From Microvirga arsenatis (GTDB lineage Bacteria > Pseudomonadota > Alphaproteobacteria > Rhizobiales > Beijerinckiaceae), in contig NZ_JAAAXJ010000007.1 of assembly GCF_009910705.1 (NCBI RefSeq), forward strand, positions 62,001-126,000: 64,000 bases of DNA, written 5' to 3'. Positions 1 to 41,112 of this stretch are shown one piece after another. The position numbers were made by a program, and so were the translations under genes. Position 1 is the first letter of the stretch, and every line of letters begins with the position of its first letter. The notes under the pieces are model-generated. The model saw only the letters and a list, made by a program, of their open reading frames with translations, was not told the DNA's origin and searched no databases.

Positions 1-386
1 CCGTCGCGGCCCACATTGGCTCCGTAGCGGGTGGCGTTCCCGTCGCCCTCGACGCGGTAGACGTAGTAGTTGCCGGGATCGACGATGATCGTCCCGGGCG
101 CCTCCCTGGTCTCGTAGCGAACCGTCCGGCGGAAATACTTGGGATCGACCTTGCTGACGTCGATCGCCGGGATCGGGAACTTTTCGTCGGGCACCGGCCC
201 GTAGACCTGCCTCGCCTCGGCGAGGCTCATCCCGTCGGACGTGGCGCAGCCGGCGAGCCCCAGCGCGCCGAGGCCGGCGGCCGAGCCGGCCAGAAACGAC
301 CGGCGGCTGAGAAGCCCCGCCCGAGCCCCGAGCAGGGCGGCCTCGTCCCTCCCGCCGTCGCCGGCGTTCCCACCGTTCATGATCAT
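1..386 (-). CDS. L,D-transpeptidase (ErfK/YbiS family), C-terminus cut by window edge
   Basis: About 128 residues of an envelope L,D-transpeptidase are visible; the rest, including the catalytic His/Cys region, lies off the left edge. The N-terminus has a twin-arginine-like segment (LLSRRSFLAG) running into a lipobox-like LAGC near residue 45, so export and lipidation are likely. The later stretch YETREAPGTIIVDPG and YYVYRVEGDGNATRYGANVGR matches the opening of the YkuD fold, where family members read 'G(T)I-D-...-L/YY-V-...-A-RY-VGVGR'. Translation starts at the ATG ending at 386, or at a second ATG at 380; an AAGGGA motif lies upstream of the first. Family function is known: forming 3-3 crosslinks or anchoring lipoproteins to peptidoglycan. 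Which one applies here is not visible. Confidence 0.85.
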   Translation of the reverse strand, partial: MIMNGGNAGDGGRDEAALLGARAGLLSRRSFLAGSAAGLGALGLAGCATSDGMSLAEARQVYGPVPDEKFPIPAIDVSKVDPKYFRRTVRYETREAPGTIIVDPGNYYVYRVEGDGNATRYGANVGRD

Positions 387-481
387 GATTGGCCGTTCCC
401 TTGTCCTGGCTGCCCGGCGCGACAAGGCTCCGGCAACCACCCGCTGGAATGTCTTGGTTGGGCTGGAGAGTGCCGTCACAG

Positions 482-541
482 GGCGCGATTGGCAAGTCGG
501 GGTTTCATGTGCAGAGGTGGGACAGGACGGTTGGGATGGCC
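482..541. repeat. 60-bp imperfect direct repeat, copy A
   Basis: By hand alignment this stretch matches 3321-3380 at 47 of 60 positions in the same orientation, with the longest identical run TGGCAAGTCGGG. The two copies lie just outside the AT-richer segment that carries the UmuD remnant and the CBASS genes. No transposase is present between or beside them. Confidence 0.6.
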
Positions 542-563
542 GCAGGAAGCGGTAGCGGGAGCC

Positions 564-938
564 TTACAGAAATGTAAGAAGGTCTGCGTTGAGCAGCAGG
601 CGCTTGACGCTGCGCTCCCCACCGATGTCCATCACCACGGTGGCGGTTCGCCCGCGTGATGCTGCGGTCGACGATGAGCAGGTCGCCGGAAAAATCCGCG
701 CCTTGACCATCGAGTGGCCGCCCACCTTGAAGAGAAACGTGAAGGCCGGATTGGGCGCCATCCAGCGAGGAAGCTCCACGTTGTCCTCAATGTAGTCCTG
801 AGCCGGGGAGGGGAAGCTCGCACACACATCATGACCGATCACCGGAACACTTACCGTCCCGCCACTGACGTCTGCCAGGACTTTCGCTCTCGTGTATTTG
901 AGAACAAAAAATGAACATATTGACGAAGGTGGCGTCAA
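564..938 (-). pseudogene. UmuD/LexA-type (S24) peptidase remnant, frameshifted
   Basis: The reading frame encodes about 124 residues resembling the self-cleaving UmuD subunit of SOS polymerase V. Visible are SPAQDYIED, a stretch ending LFKVGGHSM with the catalytic-serine motif (G-x-S-M), and TVVMDIGGERSVKRLLL with the catalytic lysine (V-K-R). Between these blocks the frame reads FPATCSSSTAASRG. The next frame reads the expected family sequence GDLLIVDRSIT over the same bases (about 655-690). Two compensating frameshifts are therefore needed to rebuild the family. No umuC follows on the minus strand, where it would lie below 564. I infer a decayed umuDC locus. A sequencing error is less likely because two shifts are required. 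Confidence 0.65.
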
Positions 939-1175
939 CCGAGCGCGGCTGGATGGTCGCTCATTCCATAAGGGAAGCTTAGAATATCCGCTGATGGAAG
1001 TATTTATTCACACGTATCCAAAGAATCGTCGTAACTAGAGGTAGAGCGATAAACCCATTGCAGATCCACCTATGTGTACGTTGAAGCAGGAACGTAGCTT
1101 GGAGCGATGTCCTTGTGGGCTCCAGAACTGCTAATCAAAGCCATCCCATAAGTGAAGTCTGTTCACGCGGAAAAT

Positions 1176-2069
1176 CTACAGGTTCGGCCAATTGTTCCAT
1201 AGATGCCGCAATGCGTTTAGGTATGCTTGGCAGTTGCCTGCCGACCAGTTCACTGGCGTGTTGCCAAGGAGTGGGTGAATACCGTTAGCACATTTGAACA
1301 ATGAGCGATCTGCATTGATTATGTAGGTGAATGTCTCAACGAAAGTGTTTTCGAAACTCGTTCCGAATTTCTCGGATGGCACATTCCAGAGCATTCCTTC
1401 GATGAAGTACGATGGTGCGATGCCATCTGGAATTATGCTCCGTTCAATCAGATAGTTGCGCATGTTCTTATAGAGGCGCACTGTCGGCTTAAACCAGCTA
1501 TTTGTCGCCTGATGTTTGGCTGTGCAGTTGTCGCTGTGCTGCACTGGGAAATTCACAATCCTCGTGCCGTCACGCAAGAAAAAGCAAATCCCGTCAGCGA
1601 AGCTCTCATCTTCCTCTGTGACACGGTAGTAATATTTAAATCGGGCACAAGGCAGCACATCGCAATCGCGACGTCTGCCGTCTCCAGGAATGAAGATGGC
1701 CTTTTGACCAACATCAATCCTCCCAAATTTTTGACGAAGCCAATCGGCTACCTCCTTCTTAAATTCGGGGAGCCCATAGTGTGCAGTACCAGGGTATTTA
1801 CGCTCAAAGATGCGGTACTGATCAGCTGGGAGAGTAGGCGCGTCGTGATAGAATGTCGAATCGAGGCGGATTATTATGTCTACATCACTATCACGAAAGA
1901 CATTCGTATCGTTTGCGTACGAGCCTTGTAGACGGATGTGAAAATTTTTCACGAAATACGCTGAATTCACGTCCTCAAGTACGCTTTTAACTGTCACGTA
2001 TGTGTCGCGCGACTGCGCGATGGCCCCTTGGTGGGACCAAGTTTCGAGTTGTGGTTCGGGAACGGCCAC
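1176..2069 (-). CDS. CBASS CD-NTase, clade-E-like (CdnE type) cyclic oligonucleotide synthase
   Basis: 297 residues. It has the cGAS/DncV-type nucleotidyltransferase signature: LQGSY with the GS pair at 49-50, S61-D62-V63-D64 as the first metal-binding carboxylates, and D137 in RDCDVLP as the third. The N-terminus (MAVPEPQLETWSHQGA) and the later TNSWFKPTVRLYKN and APSYFIEGMLWNVP closely resemble the CdnE enzyme of Rhodothermus as I recall it. The Asn reported there to select a pyrimidine nucleotide aligns with N173 in RIVNFP. On that basis a uridine-containing cyclic dinucleotide such as cUMP-AMP is a plausible product, but this is inference. The GTG start is preceded by AGGAG overlapping the stop of the upstream phospholipase gene, so the two are translationally linked. 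Base composition is AT-richer than the flanking chromosome. Confidence 0.88.
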   Translation of the reverse strand: MAVPEPQLETWSHQGAIAQSRDTYVTVKSVLEDVNSAYFVKNFHIRLQGSYANDTNVFRDSDVDIIIRLDSTFYHDAPTLPADQYRIFERKYPGTAHYGLPEFKKEVADWLRQKFGRIDVGQKAIFIPGDGRRRDCDVLPCARFKYYYRVTEEDESFADGICFFLRDGTRIVNFPVQHSDNCTAKHQATNSWFKPTVRLYKNMRNYLIERSIIPDGIAPSYFIEGMLWNVPSEKFGTSFENTFVETFTYIINADRSLFKCANGIHPLLGNTPVNWSAGNCQAYLNALRHLWNNWPNL

Positions 2070-2078
2070 GCGCTTCTC

Positions 2079-3014
2079 CTAGAATAAGTATTGCTTCAGA
2101 ATCGGCTCTCGCGAAGCGTAAGACTCCGCGCCTCGCTGGCGTAGGATATTGAGTTTATCCATGTCATGTTCAAACAAGTCTGTTGCCATCTCTGGCTTTT
2201 CAAACGTGTCGCTAATGCGGACAGTGGCAACGTCCTTGAAAAGGATAACCCGGAGTTGATCCATGGACTGAGTGTTGATCTCCAACGTCTTCTGAAGTAG
2301 CTGGACGCTGACTAAGTATTTCTTCGCTAGCCACATCTTCAGACCTGGCTTCGGCTCGGGGTACACTCCGACGCCGACACTCACGACGCGCACATGCTCA
2401 CGGGGAACTTGGAGTGCAACAAGTGCATCTGCTATTGCGTACAAGGTCGGATTATTCGCGCAGTAACCACCATCGATGAGTTCGATGCGATCTCCCATTG
2501 CCGTCGTAACGACCTTCCTGTTGAAGAATGGGTATGCTGAGCACGAAGCCTGTACCGCATCAGCGATCGTCACTCCAAACCCGGGCACAAAAGTCCCGGT
2601 GCGCCCGTGCGCTTGCTCTACGCTGCCCTTGAAGATCATCGGGCGCTCGATTTCCCACTTGGTTGCGACGACTCCTACGCCTGTCTTAACGGCGTCAAAC
2701 CTTTGGTCTTTGAAGACTTCCCTAGCAAGGTGTTCAAGGGCTGCTGACTTTTCCTTAGGAGTCTTCCGTTGCATGATGGTGGGGACGTATTCCTTGTAGA
2801 GCTGATGGATCTCCTCAACTGAATGACCGAGAGCCAGGAGCGATGCGATAATGGCTCCAGTGCTCGTACCAAAAATCAAGTCGAATTTTTCGTACAGGCG
2901 GCAACCAATGAGCCCTTCGATCTCCCGAAGAACCCCCAAACTGTAGAAGCCTTTGGCGCCTCCTCCATCAAGGCTCAGAATGCGACAAGGCTTTTCTGCC
3001 GAGAAGTTCGTCAT
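2079..3014 (-). CDS. Patatin-like phospholipase, CBASS effector (CapV/CapE type)
   Basis: 311 residues with all patatin landmarks: the oxyanion-hole glycine loop DGGGAKG at 16-22, the nucleophile elbow GTSTG with Ser51, and the second dyad member in D181-G-G. The family hydrolyses membrane phospholipids. In CBASS, CapV and CapE are activated by the cyclic nucleotide made by the adjacent CD-NTase and kill the infected cell by membrane damage. It is the first gene of a two-gene minus-strand unit, and the synthase starts 9 bases after its stop. No E1/E2 (Cap2), JAB (Cap3), HORMA or TRIP13 gene accompanies it, so this is the minimal (type I) layout. No membrane segment or signal peptide is evident, so a cytosolic enzyme is expected. 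Confidence 0.9.
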   Translation of the reverse strand: MTNFSAEKPCRILSLDGGGAKGFYSLGVLREIEGLIGCRLYEKFDLIFGTSTGAIIASLLALGHSVEEIHQLYKEYVPTIMQRKTPKEKSAALEHLAREVFKDQRFDAVKTGVGVVATKWEIERPMIFKGSVEQAHGRTGTFVPGFGVTIADAVQASCSAYPFFNRKVVTTAMGDRIELIDGGYCANNPTLYAIADALVALQVPREHVRVVSVGVGVYPEPKPGLKMWLAKKYLVSVQLLQKTLEINTQSMDQLRVILFKDVATVRISDTFEKPEMATDLFEHDMDKLNILRQRGAESYASREPILKQYLF

Positions 3015-3029
3015 CTTGTACTTTGCACG

Positions 3030-3058
3030 TTATAAAGTTGATATAGATTACTTTACAA
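3030..3058 (-). promoter_or_regulatory. Candidate sigma-70 promoter of the CBASS unit
   Basis: Read on the minus strand, TTGTAA is followed after 17 bases by TTATAA, ending about 15 bases before the phospholipase start codon. The surrounding stretch is strongly AT-rich compared with the rest of the window. The short leader leaves little space for separate regulation. Confidence 0.5.
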
Positions 3059-3145
3059 CCGCACGCTGCAAAGAGCCTTGTTGCCATTGTCCCCAACCTA
3101 ATTCCGATATTGTGGTGTCCTAGTTCATCACGTCGCCTGTTCAGT

Positions 3146-3343
3146 TCAAATCCCCGCCCCATTCTCAGACGTCCATCGATAGCGCTCCTCATACTCCTGC
3201 TCCTCGCGTTCGATGCGCTCCACATGGGCCGCGAGTTCGTCGTGCAGTTCGGCGAGGCTGCGGCGGGGCTGGTTGTCGATCTCGTATGCCCGACGGCAAG
3301 AGCGGGTGGGGCCGTCCCACGGCTCGACTGGCAAGTCGGGCAT
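3146..3343 (-). pseudogene. Fragment of the HTH-protein gene family, copy at 3.15 kb
   Basis: The minus-strand frame ends with PRRSLAELHDELAAHVERIEREE and ENGAGI. These match the C-terminus of the intact gene at 11307-11921 (PRRSLAELRDELAAHLERIEREE and ENGGGI), including the stop position. Similarity fades above about 3290, where the reading frame runs into unrelated sequence (MPDLPVEPWDG). The N-terminal helix-turn-helix half is absent. This is most simply a truncated paralogue or recombination scar. It lies between the CBASS unit and the distal direct-repeat copy. Confidence 0.6.
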
Positions 3344-3380
3344 TCATGCCCGGAGGTGGGGCTGAACGGTCCGGAGGGCC
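3321..3380. repeat. 60-bp imperfect direct repeat, copy B
   Basis: Same-orientation partner of 482-541 (47 of 60 bases identical by hand alignment). Together they bracket about 2.8 kb containing the UmuD remnant, CBASS and the HTH-gene fragment. Confidence 0.6.
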
Positions 3381-3667
3381 ATGGCGGGTCACGATCGATC
3401 CTCGCACGAGGGAGCCTCTGGGCTTTCGGGTTCGGCGGTGAGGGCTGCCTCGAGGGCTCAGTGGGATTGCTGCGCGGATGGGATTGCTTCCGGAGAGGGG
3501 AGTTCCGGCAGGATCCCGTTCAGATCGTCCGTCACCGCGATCCGCGACGAGGCCCGGTGGGTGGGCCGCTCGAACGCAGCGGTCATCAGGGTTCGGCACG
3601 CCCGTCGCCCTGCCACGTCCATGGCGACACGGGCAAACCATCGATGGGCGGCAGCGACCCCGGACCT
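3381..3667. other. Intergenic stretch without a convincing gene
   Basis: Between the repeat and the response regulator I see no family I recognise. A minus-strand frame of 54 codons (3458-3622) lies downstream of the receiver gene, but it has no clear ribosome-binding site or known motif, so it is not called. Confidence 0.4.
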
Positions 3668-4108: not shown

Positions 4109-5583
4109 TCCGGCCTCTCCTTCCGTGCCGACCTGAGCTCGATCCAGAAGCGGCTTCCCTCTCCCGGCCTTGAGATCACGCCGCTGCGGCCGCCCATGCG
4201 TTCAAGGCTTCTGCGGACGATGGCGAGGCCGATCCCTGTCCCCGGATAGCTTTCCACGCCATGAAGGCGCTGGAAGGGCTGGAACACGCGCTCCTGATGG
4301 GCGGGATCGATGCCGATGCCGTTGTCCTCGATCCAGAGCCGGACCCGCCCGTCCCGCGCCTCGGCCCTGATGCAGATCCGCGGTGTCCGGTCCGGCGGGA
4401 CGAACTTGATGGCGTTCGACAGCAGGTTCGCCGCGGCCTGGGCGAGGGTGGGCGGATGCGCCATGACGTCGGGCAGAGGATGCTTCACCTCGACCGCCGC
4501 CTTCGTTTCGCGAATCTGCAACTCGGCATCGGCGATCACCCTCTCTATCGTGGTTTCGAGGGAAACCGGGCGCACGCTCACCTCCTCCCGGGCCAGGCGG
4601 CTGTAGGTGAGGATGTCCTGGATCAGGCCCTCCATTCGTCCGGCGGCGGCGACGATGCGCGTGGCAAAACGATGACCCTCCTCCGGCAGGACGGAGCCGT
4701 AATCCTCCACGAGCGCATCGGCGTAGCCGTGCATGGCGCGCAGCGGCGCCCTCAGGTCATGGGAGATCGTGTAGGCGAAGGCATCGAGCTCGCGGTTGAC
4801 CTGGGTGAGCTGGGCGGTGCGCTCCTCGACCTGCCGTTCGAGGCTGCGCCGGAAGCCCCGCTCGGCCTCCAGGAGCCGGGCATTGGCGCGCTGCCGCCCG
4901 ATCCAGATGACGCCGAGGATGGTGCTGACCAGCGCCAGGACCCCCGTCAGGGCGGCGACCCGGCTGGTCCAGGTCGCCTGCCGCTCCAGGCGCCGGGTGC
5001 GGGAGACCATGATGTCCCGCTCGGCATGCTCGAACGCGACGATGGCAGCGTCGATCTCCTCCATCAGCCGCTGCCCGGCATCCGTCCGGACCAAGGCCAG
5101 GGCCTCCTCGAGGCTCCGGTGCCGAAGCTCGACCGTTCGGGCCAGCTCGTCCAGCTTGGCCTGGATGAGCGGGCGCAGCTGACGAAGGCGGCTCACCTGC
5201 CCAGGATCCTGCACGTCGTTTTCCAGCCGCCGGAAGCTGTCCCAGACCTGTCCGGTCGCCTGCTCGTAGGGAGCGAGGTAGCGGCGCTCCCCGGTCAGGA
5301 TGTAGCCCCTCTGGCCCGTCTCGGCGGCGCGAACGTCCACGTGCAGTTCGGCCACGCCCTGAAGGATGGAACTCGCGCGCAGAACCAGGCCCCGGGCCTC
5401 CGAGAGGCTCAAGAGAAACACGTTCAACGTGATCGCGCTGGCGACCAGCAGCGCCCCGGCCAGCGCAAGGGCGCCGGAGCCGAGAAACGGCCTGATCCGG
5501 GACGGGCCGGACGTAACAGGGTCACGCGTGGGCGGTGTCTCGGCCGCCGTTCGTGACGGATGGCTGCCGGTGGACAGGATCAA
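4105..5583 (-). CDS. Membrane sensor histidine kinase with CHASE3 domain
   Basis: 492 residues. A first membrane segment lies at about 35-58. A CHASE3 sensory domain follows at about 62-200, with the typical VRAAETGQRGYILTGERRYL. A second membrane segment spans about 207-228. After a short coiled coil (RQVEERTAQLTQVNRELDAF) comes HisKA with His275 in YTISHDLRAPLRAM. The HATPase_c domain has N-box NLLSNAIKFV, G1 DNGIGID and G2 GTGIGLAIV. CHASE3 is an extracellular or periplasmic sensor of unknown ligand. The product should phosphorylate the receiver encoded immediately downstream. Divergent from the + strand signalling genes across about 70 bases. The first 30 residues look poorly conserved, so a later start is possible. 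Confidence 0.92.
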   Translation of the reverse strand: MILSTGSHPSRTAAETPPTRDPVTSGPSRIRPFLGSGALALAGALLVASAITLNVFLLSLSEARGLVLRASSILQGVAELHVDVRAAETGQRGYILTGERRYLAPYEQATGQVWDSFRRLENDVQDPGQVSRLRQLRPLIQAKLDELARTVELRHRSLEEALALVRTDAGQRLMEEIDAAIVAFEHAERDIMVSRTRRLERQATWTSRVAALTGVLALVSTILGVIWIGRQRANARLLEAERGFRRSLERQVEERTAQLTQVNRELDAFAYTISHDLRAPLRAMHGYADALVEDYGSVLPEEGHRFATRIVAAAGRMEGLIQDILTYSRLAREEVSVRPVSLETTIERVIADAELQIRETKAAVEVKHPLPDVMAHPPTLAQAAANLLSNAIKFVPPDRTPRICIRAEARDGRVRLWIEDNGIGIDPAHQERVFQPFQRLHGVESYPGTGIGLAIVRRSLERMGGRSGVISRPGEGSRFWIELRSARKERPE

Positions 5584-5655
5584 CGGAGCTTCCCGTTCGT
5601 TGCCTTTGCAGCCTCGTGCACCAGTTCATTCATCGCTTCCTGCCTGAACGATCCC

Positions 5656-6639
5656 ATGCGCATCCTCTTTGTCGATGACGACCCCGATACCCGTGCTCTG
5701 GCAATTCGGGCCGTTGCCCAGGAGTTCCCCGACGCCGACATCCGGGAAGCTCCCGATCTCAATGGGCTCGAAGCCCTCCTGCGGGAGCCGGCGCCCGACA
5801 TTCTGGTCACCGATTACGACCTGCGCTGGTCGGACGGGATCGCCGTCTTCGACAAGGTCAAGGCCGCCAATCCCTTCTGCTGCACGGTCATGTTCACGGG
5901 CACGGGCAACGAGGAGCTGGCGGTTCGCGCGCTCAAGCACGGCTTCGACGATTACGTGGTCAAGGGCGCCAAGCAGCTTCGCCGCCTCGCCGCGGCGGTC
6001 CGCTCGGCCTACGACCGCAGGCGGGAGCTGCTCGAGCTCAGCGAAAACCGCGACCTGGTTCTCAAGGAGCTGTACCACCGGCTGCACAACAACCTCCAGA
6101 TCGTGATCAGCCTCCTGCGGATGACGGAGAAGGCGATCGCGGACCCGAGCGACCGGGAGCAGCTCGCGGACCTCCAGCGACGCATCCAGGCGCTGAGCGC
6201 CCTGCAGGAGGAGTTCTACCGCTCGGAGGACTTTCGCCGGGTGGACTTTGCGGCCTTCGTCGAACGGCTGGCCGGAAGCCTCGCCGGGTTGTCGGGCGGG
6301 CGCGTTCGGCTTGCCCTTCGGCTGGAAGCGGTGGAGTTGCCGGTTGACTTGGCAGTGCCGTTCGGGCTCATTGCCAATGAAGTTCTCACCAATTCCTTGA
6401 AGCATGCGTTTCCGGACGGTCGCGCCGGACAGCTGTCGGTGACTCTCGAAGCGGCAGCCAATCGAGCGGTCCTGACCGTCGCGGACGATGGAGCGGGATA
6501 CCCCGAGGATTTGGATCCGTCTGCGGCGTCCGGTGTCGGAATGCGCCTCATCCGACGGCTGGCGGACCAGATGGAGGGTGAGGTGTCGTTCGAACGAGGC
6601 GAAGCGGGAGCCACATGCCGGATCAGCGTTCCACTCTGA
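5656..6639 (+). CDS. Receiver-HisKA_2 hybrid histidine kinase (cytosolic)
   Basis: 327 residues starting at MRILFVDDDP. An N-terminal receiver has D53 in VTDYD, a threonine in MFTGTGNEE and a lysine in VVKGAKQL. A HisKA_2-type dimerisation region follows, with His141 in LKELYHRLHNNLQIV, then a HATPase with NEVLTNSLKHAF and DDGAGYP. There are no membrane segments. Placing the receiver before the kinase suggests that a partner kinase, perhaps the divergently encoded CHASE3 kinase, controls this enzyme through phosphorylation; this is inference. The upstream in-frame extension to 5560 runs back into the divergent kinase gene and is not conserved sequence, so the ATG at 5656 is preferred. Confidence 0.9.
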   Translation: MRILFVDDDPDTRALAIRAVAQEFPDADIREAPDLNGLEALLREPAPDILVTDYDLRWSDGIAVFDKVKAANPFCCTVMFTGTGNEELAVRALKHGFDDYVVKGAKQLRRLAAAVRSAYDRRRELLELSENRDLVLKELYHRLHNNLQIVISLLRMTEKAIADPSDREQLADLQRRIQALSALQEEFYRSEDFRRVDFAAFVERLAGSLAGLSGGRVRLALRLEAVELPVDLAVPFGLIANEVLTNSLKHAFPDGRAGQLSVTLEAAANRAVLTVADDGAGYPEDLDPSAASGVGMRLIRRLADQMEGEVSFERGEAGATCRISVPL

Positions 6640-7055
6640 GCGAGAGGCTGCGCGTTCTCATCGTCGAGGACGAAACCCTCGTGGCGGACTACATCGCCGA
6701 TGTGGTCGAGGAAGCGGGTCACGAAGTGGCGGGCTTTGCCGCGACGGGCGAGAAGGCGCTCGAGGCCCTGGCGCGGGACCGGGTCGACCTCGCCATCCTG
6801 GACATCAAGCTGAAGGGCAGCATGACCGGGATCGATGTCGCCCACGCGGCGCGCGATCGTGCAATCCCCTACCTGTTCATCTCCGGGTCCGGCGAAGCCC
6901 TGACGCGTCAGGCCGCCGAGGCCACAGGCCCGCTCGCCTTTCTCCAGAAGCCGTTCAACCAGGAAGAACTCGTTTCGGTTCTCAGGACCACCGCGGAGCG
7001 CGAAGCGACATCCGCACGGGCGTTCGCCCCGGATGCCAAGGGGCAAGAGGGCTGA
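6615..7055 (+). CDS. Stand-alone response regulator receiver protein
   Basis: 146 residues, a single receiver domain. The acidic pair is in IVEDE, the phosphoacceptor is D63 in LAILDIKLKGSMTG, the serine is in FISGSGE, and the lysine is in FLQKPFNQEELV. The LDIxLxGxxxG pattern is typical of receivers paired with HWE/HisKA_2 kinases. The gene overlaps the 3' end of the receiver-kinase gene by 25 bases, so co-translation is likely and it is the expected phosphoacceptor of that kinase. The C-terminal tail of about 20 residues is unstructured. No output domain is present. Confidence 0.9.
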   Translation: MPDQRSTLSERLRVLIVEDETLVADYIADVVEEAGHEVAGFAATGEKALEALARDRVDLAILDIKLKGSMTGIDVAHAARDRAIPYLFISGSGEALTRQAAEATGPLAFLQKPFNQEELVSVLRTTAEREATSARAFAPDAKGQEG

Positions 7056-7606
7056 TGGCTGCGCCATGCGTCCTGCTTCTCGGCAGGGTGCATGACGGGT
7101 TGAAGGAGCGCGCAGGATCGAGTGAACGTGCGAATGTCCGCTGATCTTTTCCGTTGAGCCTTGCCGCTCTTGCTCAAATTCCCCCGCCATTCCCGCACGT
7201 CCCGGTGCAGGCCCTCCTCGCGCTCGATGGGCTCGGGATGGGCCGCGAGCTCGCCGCGCAGTTCGGCGAGGATCCGCGTGAGGCGGGCCAGCGGCTGAAG
7301 ATGTCGCGGTCGGATCAGCTGGTGACTGATGTAGATTCGCAGGCATGCTAAGCTTAGCCGATACAAGAGCATCGATTATTCTGCCGATAATCGAAAGCGG
7401 AAGTGTCAGCGGCCAGTATTGAGGTTCTAAGCTTGGCAGATGTTCATCAGGTTATTTTGAGCAATCTGCATCCAATCGCTGACATGTCGTGTAGTGTCTG
7501 CTCAGGGTGAATGCGGGCTTCTTCCTTGTCTTGCGTGCGGCTGTCCGAGGGCCAAGGCCACGCCACTCCCCTGAAGCTCACTCGCTACCAACCATGGGAG
7601 TCGTCG
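7056..7606. other. Gene-poor stretch between signalling cluster and RTX gene
   Basis: No intact gene is supported. The middle holds the degenerate HTH-gene fragment at 7178-7310. The final 280 bases, which turn AT-richer around 7340-7500, are the likely promoter region of the RTX gene, but no convincing -35/-10 pair stands out. Confidence 0.4.
7178..7310 (-). pseudogene. Fragment of the HTH-protein gene family, copy at 7.2 kb
   Basis: Positions 7188-7271 match 11335-11418, the 3' end of the intact gene, at 78 of 84 bases. Beyond 7271 the match jumps to the part of the gene encoding LQPLARLTR, so a middle segment is missing. On the minus strand the frame reads LQPLARLTRILAELRGELAAHPEPIEREEGLHRDVREW and then continues without the family's stop codon. 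This is a deleted, non-functional copy. Confidence 0.65.
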
Positions 7607-9478
7607 ATGACTGAGCAAAACCATACGGGACACGGCGGATCGTCTTCTGGCGCAGCCAGCGGATCGCATAGTTCGCTGGACCTGAACAGCGCAAACCTCA
7701 ATGCCGCGCTTCAGGCCTTTTCCGGGGCAGACCGCGTGTTCTTCGCGGATTTGAACGAGCTTAACAATTCCGAGGCCGAAGGCGGGGCTCTGCTCCTGCT
7801 CAAGGGCAACCGACTCACCGTCATCACGGCCGCAAGGGGTGTCGAGGCCGGCCAGATCCACCCGCAGCACATTCACGGTTTCGTGGACGGGAGCAACGCG
7901 ACCGTGCCGACCCTGGCTCAGGACGACGACCGGGACGGGTTCATCGAACTGGACGAGGGTGGAGACACCTATGGCCCTGTTCTTCTCAGCCTCACCTCGC
8001 CTCCCGGGCCTGAAGCCTCGGGCTTCCCGAACCCCGCCGGCACCTCGTTCCTGTTCTCCCAAACCTACGACCTGACCGATCCGCGCAACGGCGAATTCGC
8101 AAATCTGTTGGACGACGTGTCGCTCAACAGGAGGGAGATCGTTCTGCACGGCAAGACGGTTCTGGCCGGGCACGGGCAAGGCACGGCCGGCGAGGTGGAT
8201 GGCACGGCCGGCTACAAGATCGTGCTGCCGATCGCCTCCGGTGAGCTGCGTGAACTCTCCTACAGCAGCGCCCTCGCGCTGTTTCAGGATGCGGTCTCCC
8301 TTCAGGTTCGCAGAGCTGTTGTTGGGGATGGTGGAAGCGATGTGCTTCGCGGCACGGGAAATGACGACAACCTCCAAGGCCGCGGCGGCCACGACGAGCT
8401 GTACGGCCGAGGGGGCGACGACTACCTGAGCGGCGGCTCAGGCCGCGACGAGCTGTACGGCGGCTCCGGCGACGATTACCTCGACGGTGGCTCGGGCCAT
8501 GACGAACTGTTCGGCAACGCGGGCAATGACCATCTTGTCGGCGGGTCGGGCAATGACGAATTGTCCGGCGGAACAGGTCATGACCATCTCTTCGGCGGCA
8601 CAGGCAACGACCGCGCCTTCTTCAATGTCTCGACCGGCGGCTCGGACATCGTCAATCTCGGTTCGGGCTCCGACATTGTCAGCGTCACCGCTTCCTCGGC
8701 GCGGCAGGTTCGTCTCACCTTTACGAGCGCGGAGGTGGGCAATGGAACGGCGACCGACGCCGATACGATGACCAATCAGGATGGCGGCCTCGCGGTTCGC
8801 CTTCAATCCGAGAACAGCGCCGGCGAACTCATCGGCGCCATCAGCCGCTTCGACGATGAAGGCATCACGTTCGATGCGGCGAGGTCCGGATTGACCTTCG
8901 ACGTGCGGGACCTCGTTTCGGGCGCCGCCCGCGGCGATCGGTTCGACGTGGTCAGCCTCGGCACCAGAGGAGCCGACAATCTCCGGGCCGTTCAGTCGGG
9001 CGACGCCTACTACTTCAACGCCGGCATGGGCAATGACCGGGTGACGGGCGGGAGAGACGGCGACTTCCTGGTGGGCGGTGCCGGCAACGACAGCCTCGGC
9101 GGCGGTCGCGGCGACGACACGTTCATCGGCGGCGGCGGCAATGACGTGCTCACCGGAGGAACGGGCGACGACGCCTTCATCTTCAACGCTCCTCTCGACC
9201 CGGCGGGCAATGTCGACAGGATCCGGGACTTCAGCGCCAGTGACGATACGCTGCGGCTGGACAACGCCGTCTTCGTCGGGCTGACGGACGGAGCCCTGAG
9301 CGCCAATGCCTTCGCGCTCGCAAGCGCCGCCGCGGAGGCCGATGACCGGATCGTCTACGATCAGAGCACCGGCAACCTGTTCTTCGACGCCGATGGCGGG
9401 GCTCGTGACAATCAGACGCTGTTTGCAACCCTGACCAACAGGACCAGCATCACGGCAAGCGACTTCTTCGTGGTCTAG
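7607..9478 (+). CDS. Secreted RTX calcium-binding protein with N-terminal CHRD-like domain
   Basis: 623 residues. The N-terminal 200 residues contain an EF-hand-like loop (DDDRDGFIELDE) and a HPQHIHGF motif recalling CHRD domains. Two clusters of GGxGxDxxx nonapeptide repeats follow, at about residues 238-338 and 470-526, separated by a 130-residue non-repeat domain. Such repeats form calcium-filled beta-rolls outside the cell. The C-terminus ends in the short acidic-hydrophobic tail SDFFVV, as expected for type I secretion, and there is no Sec signal peptide. No T1SS ABC/MFP genes are nearby. The start at 7607 (MTEQNHTGHGG) is chosen because the longer frame from 7511 begins with unrelated sequence. 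The role could be adhesion, a matrix protein or an enzyme; none is shown. Confidence 0.88.
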   Translation: MTEQNHTGHGGSSSGAASGSHSSLDLNSANLNAALQAFSGADRVFFADLNELNNSEAEGGALLLLKGNRLTVITAARGVEAGQIHPQHIHGFVDGSNATVPTLAQDDDRDGFIELDEGGDTYGPVLLSLTSPPGPEASGFPNPAGTSFLFSQTYDLTDPRNGEFANLLDDVSLNRREIVLHGKTVLAGHGQGTAGEVDGTAGYKIVLPIASGELRELSYSSALALFQDAVSLQVRRAVVGDGGSDVLRGTGNDDNLQGRGGHDELYGRGGDDYLSGGSGRDELYGGSGDDYLDGGSGHDELFGNAGNDHLVGGSGNDELSGGTGHDHLFGGTGNDRAFFNVSTGGSDIVNLGSGSDIVSVTASSARQVRLTFTSAEVGNGTATDADTMTNQDGGLAVRLQSENSAGELIGAISRFDDEGITFDAARSGLTFDVRDLVSGAARGDRFDVVSLGTRGADNLRAVQSGDAYYFNAGMGNDRVTGGRDGDFLVGGAGNDSLGGGRGDDTFIGGGGNDVLTGGTGDDAFIFNAPLDPAGNVDRIRDFSASDDTLRLDNAVFVGLTDGALSANAFALASAAAEADDRIVYDQSTGNLFFDADGGARDNQTLFATLTNRTSITASDFFVV

Positions 9479-40757: not shown

Positions 40758-40921
40758 CGATGCCAGGAGCTGCCGACCGGATCAGGCCGCGCTTTCCCCT
40801 TCTGTGACAGATGGCCCTAAGATGGAGCCTGGCAGGCCCCGCGTCAATTAAAGGGTGAACAGGGCTGCCCTGCTTTGTTGACAGGACCGCAATTCCTCTT
40901 CAGAGCTAGACCCAGCCGATG

Positions 40922-41112
40922 ATCCCCGCGGAAGAGACCGGACGACCGTCCGGCGCCGAAGGCGCAACCGCCCCGGAAACGCTCAGGCCAAAGGACCGCG
41001 CGGGAGCTGGCACTCTGGAAAGCGGCGACGTTTGAAAACGTCGTCCACCGACGGGCGTAACCTTGGGCTTCGGCCTAAGGGAAATCTCTCAGGTCTCGGG
41101 ACAGAGGGGGCG
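40922..41112 (+). ncRNA. Tandem glycine riboswitch upstream of gcvT
   Basis: Two adjacent glycine aptamers are visible. The first (about 40927-41000) has GCGGAAGAGACCGG, CGCCGAAGGCGCAACCGCCCC and GAAACGCTCAGGCCAAAGGACCG. The second (about 41010-41110) has ACTCTGGAAAGCGG, CACCGACGGGCGTAACCTT and GGAAATCTCTCAGGT followed by CAGAGGGGG. The paired 'AGGCCAAAGGACCG' and 'CTCAGGT' blocks with the final CAGAGGGG are hallmarks of the class. TTGACA at 40878-40883 is a candidate -35. Glycine binding normally turns the downstream cleavage genes on. Confidence 0.95.

Follow-up and report, generated by a model that had tools for sequence, protein, structure and literature searches.

A probable two-gene CapE-CdnE-type CBASS cassette in a low-GC stretch of Microvirga arsenatis

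A lipase gene and a synthase gene form a compact unit

The window, a 64,000-nucleotide stretch of a Microvirga arsenatis contig, contains two adjacent genes joined by a short junction:

2079..3014, minus strand: gene for a CapE-type patatin phospholipase of 311 amino acids (Pfam, NCBIfam, identity to the E. coli protein, AlphaFold2)
1176..2069, minus strand: gene for a CdnE-type CD-NTase (cyclic dinucleotide synthase) of 297 amino acids (NCBIfam, phmmer, AlphaFold2)
2070..2081, minus strand: patatin stop codon TAG overlapping an AGGAG, with a 9-base spacer to the synthase GTG (sequence; geometry in relatives)

ORF analysis showed that both reading frames are intact, the lipase gene starting with ATG and the synthase gene with GTG, and a gap of 9 bases leads from lipase to synthase on the same strand. 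The initial annotation had linked the two genes by an overlap of stop codon and AGGAG, and this is the arrangement we found: the patatin TAG runs into the AGGAG, 9 bases before the GTG. The same TAGGAG, followed by GTGGCG, occurs at a related locus (L009), and the geometry is similar in some relatives; this matching arrangement of stop, AGGAG, and GTG supports the GTG start of the synthase. A promoter scan gave nothing exceeding chance: the one promoter-like site detected lies within the patatin gene but on the strand opposite to it, and the strand of the genes has none. Two terminator-like sites were detected, and shuffled sequences give as many.

Type I CBASS is defined by one synthase and one effector, with no ancillary Cap2 or Cap3 gene (PMC10419184). 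The absence of Cap2 and Cap3, claimed in the initial annotation, agrees with our Pfam scan, in which none of 12 chosen neighbouring ORFs contained an E1/E2 or JAB domain. Just downstream of the synthase, at 564-938 on the minus strand, lies a Peptidase S24-like fragment (Pfam, 5.4e-7), which looks like a degraded UmuD-type remnant.

Both proteins fall within anti-phage families

The lipase matches the Pfam Patatin family (E value of 2.4e-28) and carries the motifs first read from the translation, namely, GGGAKG at residues 17-22, GTSTG with Ser51, and DGG with Asp181; Ser51 and Asp181 are the catalytic dyad. It passes the cut-off of the NCBIfam model DS2_1, "anti-phage phospholipase" (517.6 bits against 400; E value of 1e-155), and matches the PADLOC phospholipase model at 1.1e-166. 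A database search scored the 7999 candidates sharing most words with the lipase and gave 5835 matches; in the best 120 of these, which include the protein itself and are at least 72% identical to it, Ser51 and Asp181 are conserved without exception, which is weak evidence for proteins so closely related. Among phage records, the lipase query recovered patatins from 7 records that are 26.7-29.8% identical over 59-63% of the protein; thus, it has no close relative there.

Two comparisons distinguish the lipase from CapV, as had been proposed from the sequence. By sequence, the closest PDB entry is 9iom, the "cUMP-AMP-activated phospholipase" CapE, at 1.2e-142 (CapV, 1.1e-13); the aligned stretch of 9iom is contained letter for letter in the E. 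coli protein WP_001593459, to which our lipase is 66.8% identical. When the AlphaFold2 model (mean pLDDT of 87.2) was used in a fold search, the first seven PDB matches were all CapE chains, 64-68% identical (9iom, 9ion, 9iop, and 9ioq, with PDB titles that include cUA-bound filaments), whereas the CapV entries were 20-23% identical. Membership among the CapV cGAMP-activated lipases was rejected, as the score against the corresponding model (NF041079), 131.2 bits, is below the curated cut-off of 200.

The synthase passes the cut-off of NCBIfam DS2_2 (420.1 bits against 350; E value of 4.2e-126) and matches the PADLOC cyclase model at 3.8e-112. A Pfam scan yields no family for it at an E value of 0.001, and the protein database lists PF26305 for an identical protein (P0001). 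It is only 43.8% identical to the E. coli protein WP_001593458, which is reported to be encoded by cdnE and to make cyclic UMP-AMP (PMC9813507). Its nearest solved sequence is the Rhodothermus marinus enzyme RmCdnE (6e0k; phmmer, 4.9e-56), and its AlphaFold2 model (mean pLDDT of 91.8) has as top PDB match 6e0l, the R. marinus cUMP-AMP synthase. The nucleotidyltransferase residues are those originally described (G49-S50, D62-V63-D64, D137, and N173 within RIVNFP), so the catalytic set of G49, S50, D62, D64, and D137 is intact. With both NCBIfam cut-offs passed, adjacent genes, and intact catalytic residues, the assignment to a type I CBASS unit holds.

The cassette lies in a low-GC stretch, and synthase relatives are rare in the genus

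Four further features describe the surroundings of the two genes:

939..3200, no strand: low-GC stretch with the two genes (GC content of 0.47-0.52 by part; surroundings, about 0.64-0.72)
472..541, plus strand: left-hand member of a pair of 70-base direct repeats that are 79% identical (association only)
3311..3380, plus strand: right copy of the repeat, the two copies flanking the cassette (association only)
1..3602, no strand: the portion inside the window of a segment of about 5.9 kb; the segment starts about 2.3 kb outside the window, on its left side, and is missing from the corresponding site of the related genome G027

Measured in 400-base windows, GC content is 0.465-0.537 over about 801-3200 and 0.64-0.72 to the right of 3200; it is 0.69-0.71 at the left end of the window and intermediate at 400-1000. 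The two flanking copies of the repeat are the only ones found in the genome itself, and across 48 genomes of the genus, beyond these copies, 36-base matches occur in two other species. Of 48 genomes of the genus (our own included), 37 have some match to the 3-kb right flank and 7 have a full-length one. We compared our contig with five of the six other genomes with a full-length flank (all except G030). G027 matches the flank best (87%). Its left match stops about 2.3 kb outside the window, on the left side, its right match begins at 3602, and the two are about 100 bases apart in that genome; hence, about 5.9 kb including the cassette is absent there, either by gain here or by loss there. None of the other four genomes compared has a match that extends through to the left flank.

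A relative of the synthase was found in 1 of 36 other genomes of the genus (G032, 52%). Other matches listed include a Nitrospira genome at 67% and a metagenome protein at 88%. The GC content and this patchy distribution suggest that the cassette may have been acquired horizontally. A tRNA scan of the window found none; therefore, there is no tRNA insertion site within it. Elsewhere in the window are a glycine riboswitch at 40919-41008 on the plus strand (RF00504, 63.7 bits), the sole Rfam match, and an ORF with RTX calcium-binding repeats at 7511-9478, also on the plus strand (Pfam HemolysinCabind, 3.9e-29).

Lipase and synthase are paired in relatives, mostly without a third gene

Of 20 loci with a synthase relative (L002, L003, and L005 to L022; L004, a 26% match in one search and absent from another, was set aside), 18 carry a patatin gene directly upstream of it in the same orientation. 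Among these 18, two have broken frames (L011 and L016) and one is cut by a contig end (L015). The two unpaired loci are L018, with a synthase piece of 109 residues, and L019, from R. marinus. Lipase and synthase distances are correlated (r of 0.69 over 16 pairs), and none of 9999 permutations reached this value in a test that ignores shared descent. The 16 pairs comprise the window, the E. coli locus L044, and the 14 loci that remain of the 20 once L010, L011, L015, L016, L018, and L019 are set aside; L010 and L017 give equal identities and may be one lineage.

In E. coli AR_0128 and LR-58-1, the two examined out of 18 genomes with a DNA match among 5426, the lipase WP_001593459 and the nucleotidyltransferase WP_001593458 are followed in a row by a protein of 581 residues (WP_001593457 or WP_016240614). 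WP_001593457 scores 818.8 bits against the model DS2_3 (NF053872; cut-off, 630) and has DACNG and DACNH domains, described as a "probable sensor"; a literature search turned up no paper about them. In a Citrobacter plasmid, the model gives a score of 803.5 bits, and both the E. coli and the Citrobacter operons carry DS2_3 directly downstream of the pair. Profile searches located DS2_3 beside CapE-CdnE at three loci:

L044 (E. coli), 5115-6857: DS2_3
L020, 4952-6694: DS2_3
L012, 2352-4046: DS2_3

Among 19 records of relatives, chosen by similarity to our synthase, drafts included and L019 left out, DS2_3 was detected in 3: two of the matches exceed the cut-off, and the third is split into two pieces, one of which has a stop. 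In this small sample, the two-gene form is therefore more common. In our own genome, a profile search did not find DS2_3, and 14 control genomes were likewise silent.

Since the third gene was not found in the genome, the cassette may be incomplete: it could have been acquired but be ineffective in defence, or be in the process of being lost, for want of DS2_3. This reading, which is compatible with the one we prefer, draws on the position of DS2_3 directly downstream in the E. coli and Citrobacter operons and on the Peptidase S24-like fragment that occupies the corresponding place here. We consider it unlikely, given that only 3 of the 19 related records have DS2_3 and that both genes are intact and keep their active-site residues. 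A different view of the same distribution is that two genes, without DS2_3, naturally make up the core of the family: CdnE by itself handles sensing and control, and the E. coli DACNG/DACNH protein is a later, optional regulator. We advance this tentatively, as a proposal just short of evenly balanced; if it is true, contrasting two- and three-gene members would reveal the role of DS2_3. In 16 of the 19 related records searched, as in our own genome, no DS2_3 was found, and the third gene may be dispensable.

The acceptor-base residue points to a uracil-containing signal

In RmCdnE, Asn166 is reported to form a bond with the acceptor's uracil, and the N166S substitution leads mainly to cAA (PMC10442399). 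The initial annotation had placed N173 of our synthase at this selectivity position, and both phmmer and MAFFT align it with Asn166; the equivalent residue of E. coli CdnE is Asn174. With our own sequence included, this column is Asn in all 50 rows of alignment A2 and in all 20 sequences of a second alignment. It is also Asn in 120 of 120 database proteins, ours among them (the best 120 of 2235 matches), which is weak evidence because these are only the closest relatives, at least 59% identical.

The donor site is less uniform. Enzymes making cyclic di-pyrimidines are reported to have (R/Q)xW there, and RmCdnE has Cys252 and Glu265 (PMC10442399). In our synthase, C260 corresponds to Cys252, V273 replaces Glu265, and residues 273-275 read VNW; W275, the Trp of the motif, is thus present, but V273 is neither R nor Q, so the enzyme lacks (R/Q)xW. 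On this ground, assignment to the cyclic di-pyrimidine CdnE enzymes was rejected. Among the best 120 proteins, position 273 is V in 101 and T, I, A, or L in the rest, never R or Q; across the wider comparison, the V of our enzyme is replaced by T in E. coli (Thr276), by E in R. marinus, and by N in three related loci. The donor base is therefore not set by one conserved residue. For R. marinus, this column reads Q in the 20-sequence alignment and Glu265 in two smaller ones; we prefer Glu, given the two smaller alignments and the numbering used in the paper (PMC10442399). The absence of (R/Q)xW fits a signal made of U plus A, the donor presumably being a purine, and the product is most likely cyclic UMP-AMP. 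The signal type predicted from the raw sequence thus appears to be confirmed by computation.

The donor pocket does differ from those of the characterized enzymes, with V273 where RmCdnE has Glu265 and E. coli has Thr276, and with W275 present, so the same architecture might use another pyrimidine-containing nucleotide (cUU, cUC, or cUG). We regard this as a slim chance: RmCdnE and E. coli CdnE, reported makers of cUA, share that Trp; the pocket-restricting R/Q is missing; and the lipase is closely related to a receptor with cUA bound. Least credible of all is a cGAMP system, with the lipase acting as CapV and the synthase making a purine signal, since the one point in its favor, the match to NF041079, falls below the cut-off while that of DS2_1 is passed, the lipase is far closer in identity to CapE (64-68%) than to CapV structures (20-23%), and N173 corresponds to a residue reported to read uracil.

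A proposed cell-death cassette driven by cyclic UMP-AMP

E. coli CdnE has been reported to act through cUA, which stimulates CapE to form filaments and disrupt membranes (PMC12804361, citing Wang et al., Cell 2025). The window carries both genes with their active-site residues, in the same order as the homologous E. coli pair, and with the same acceptor-base residue. We conclude that they very probably constitute an anti-phage cassette, a two-gene type I CBASS like E. coli CapE-CdnE, with cUMP-AMP as its signal and cell death driven by the lipase; the product, filament formation, trigger, and role in phage defence are what we infer from this homology. Upon infection, CdnE would join UTP, the acceptor, read by Asn173, and ATP, the donor, into 3',3'-cyclic UMP-AMP. 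This molecule would bind the CapE patatin, which would assemble into filaments and switch on its phospholipase activity. The lipase would then break down the inner membrane, and the infected cell would die before phage release. The cassette extends a described anti-phage family by one member and is a relative of the characterized E. coli system.

Comparison with known systems

The closest counterpart is the E. coli CapE-CdnE pair. Here as there, the lipase precedes the synthase on one strand, and the window's proteins (66.8% and 43.8% identical, respectively) pass both NCBIfam cut-offs, DS2_1 and DS2_2, and share the acceptor-base Asn. The E. coli operon differs in continuing with a third gene (WP_001593457, DS2_3) and then with a gene annotated as a CBASS cGAMP-activated phospholipase, neither of which adjoins the pair in the window. 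In AR_0128, the latter gene starts at 7282 of L044, after CapE-CdnE-DS2_3; two different lipase systems may lie side by side in that strain.

R. marinus CdnE (6e0k/6e0l) is the nearest solved synthase by both sequence and fold, with Asn166 equivalent to N173 and Cys252 to C260. Yet it is only 35-36% identical to our synthase, its DS2_2 score of 287.5 is below the cut-off of 350, and its next gene encodes Cap15 receptor and membrane domains rather than a patatin. In the LpCdnE, EfCdnE, and ClCdnE cyclic di-pyrimidine synthases, the clade E fold and the Asn at lid 1 are reportedly the same; the window enzyme differs from them in lacking (R/Q)xW at the donor lid and in being paired with a patatin instead of a Cap15 effector.

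A 2023 review cites CapV as a phospholipase effector and, for U-containing signals, effectors with membrane domains (PMC10419184). In the type II CapV-DncV system, as in the proposed cassette, the product of a CD-NTase switches on a patatin effector (PMC10419184). In contrast to that system, the neighbouring ORFs scanned around the cassette contain no domain of the Cap2 or Cap3 type, and its lipase, to which CapV is 20-23% identical, scores below the cGAMP-lipase cut-off.
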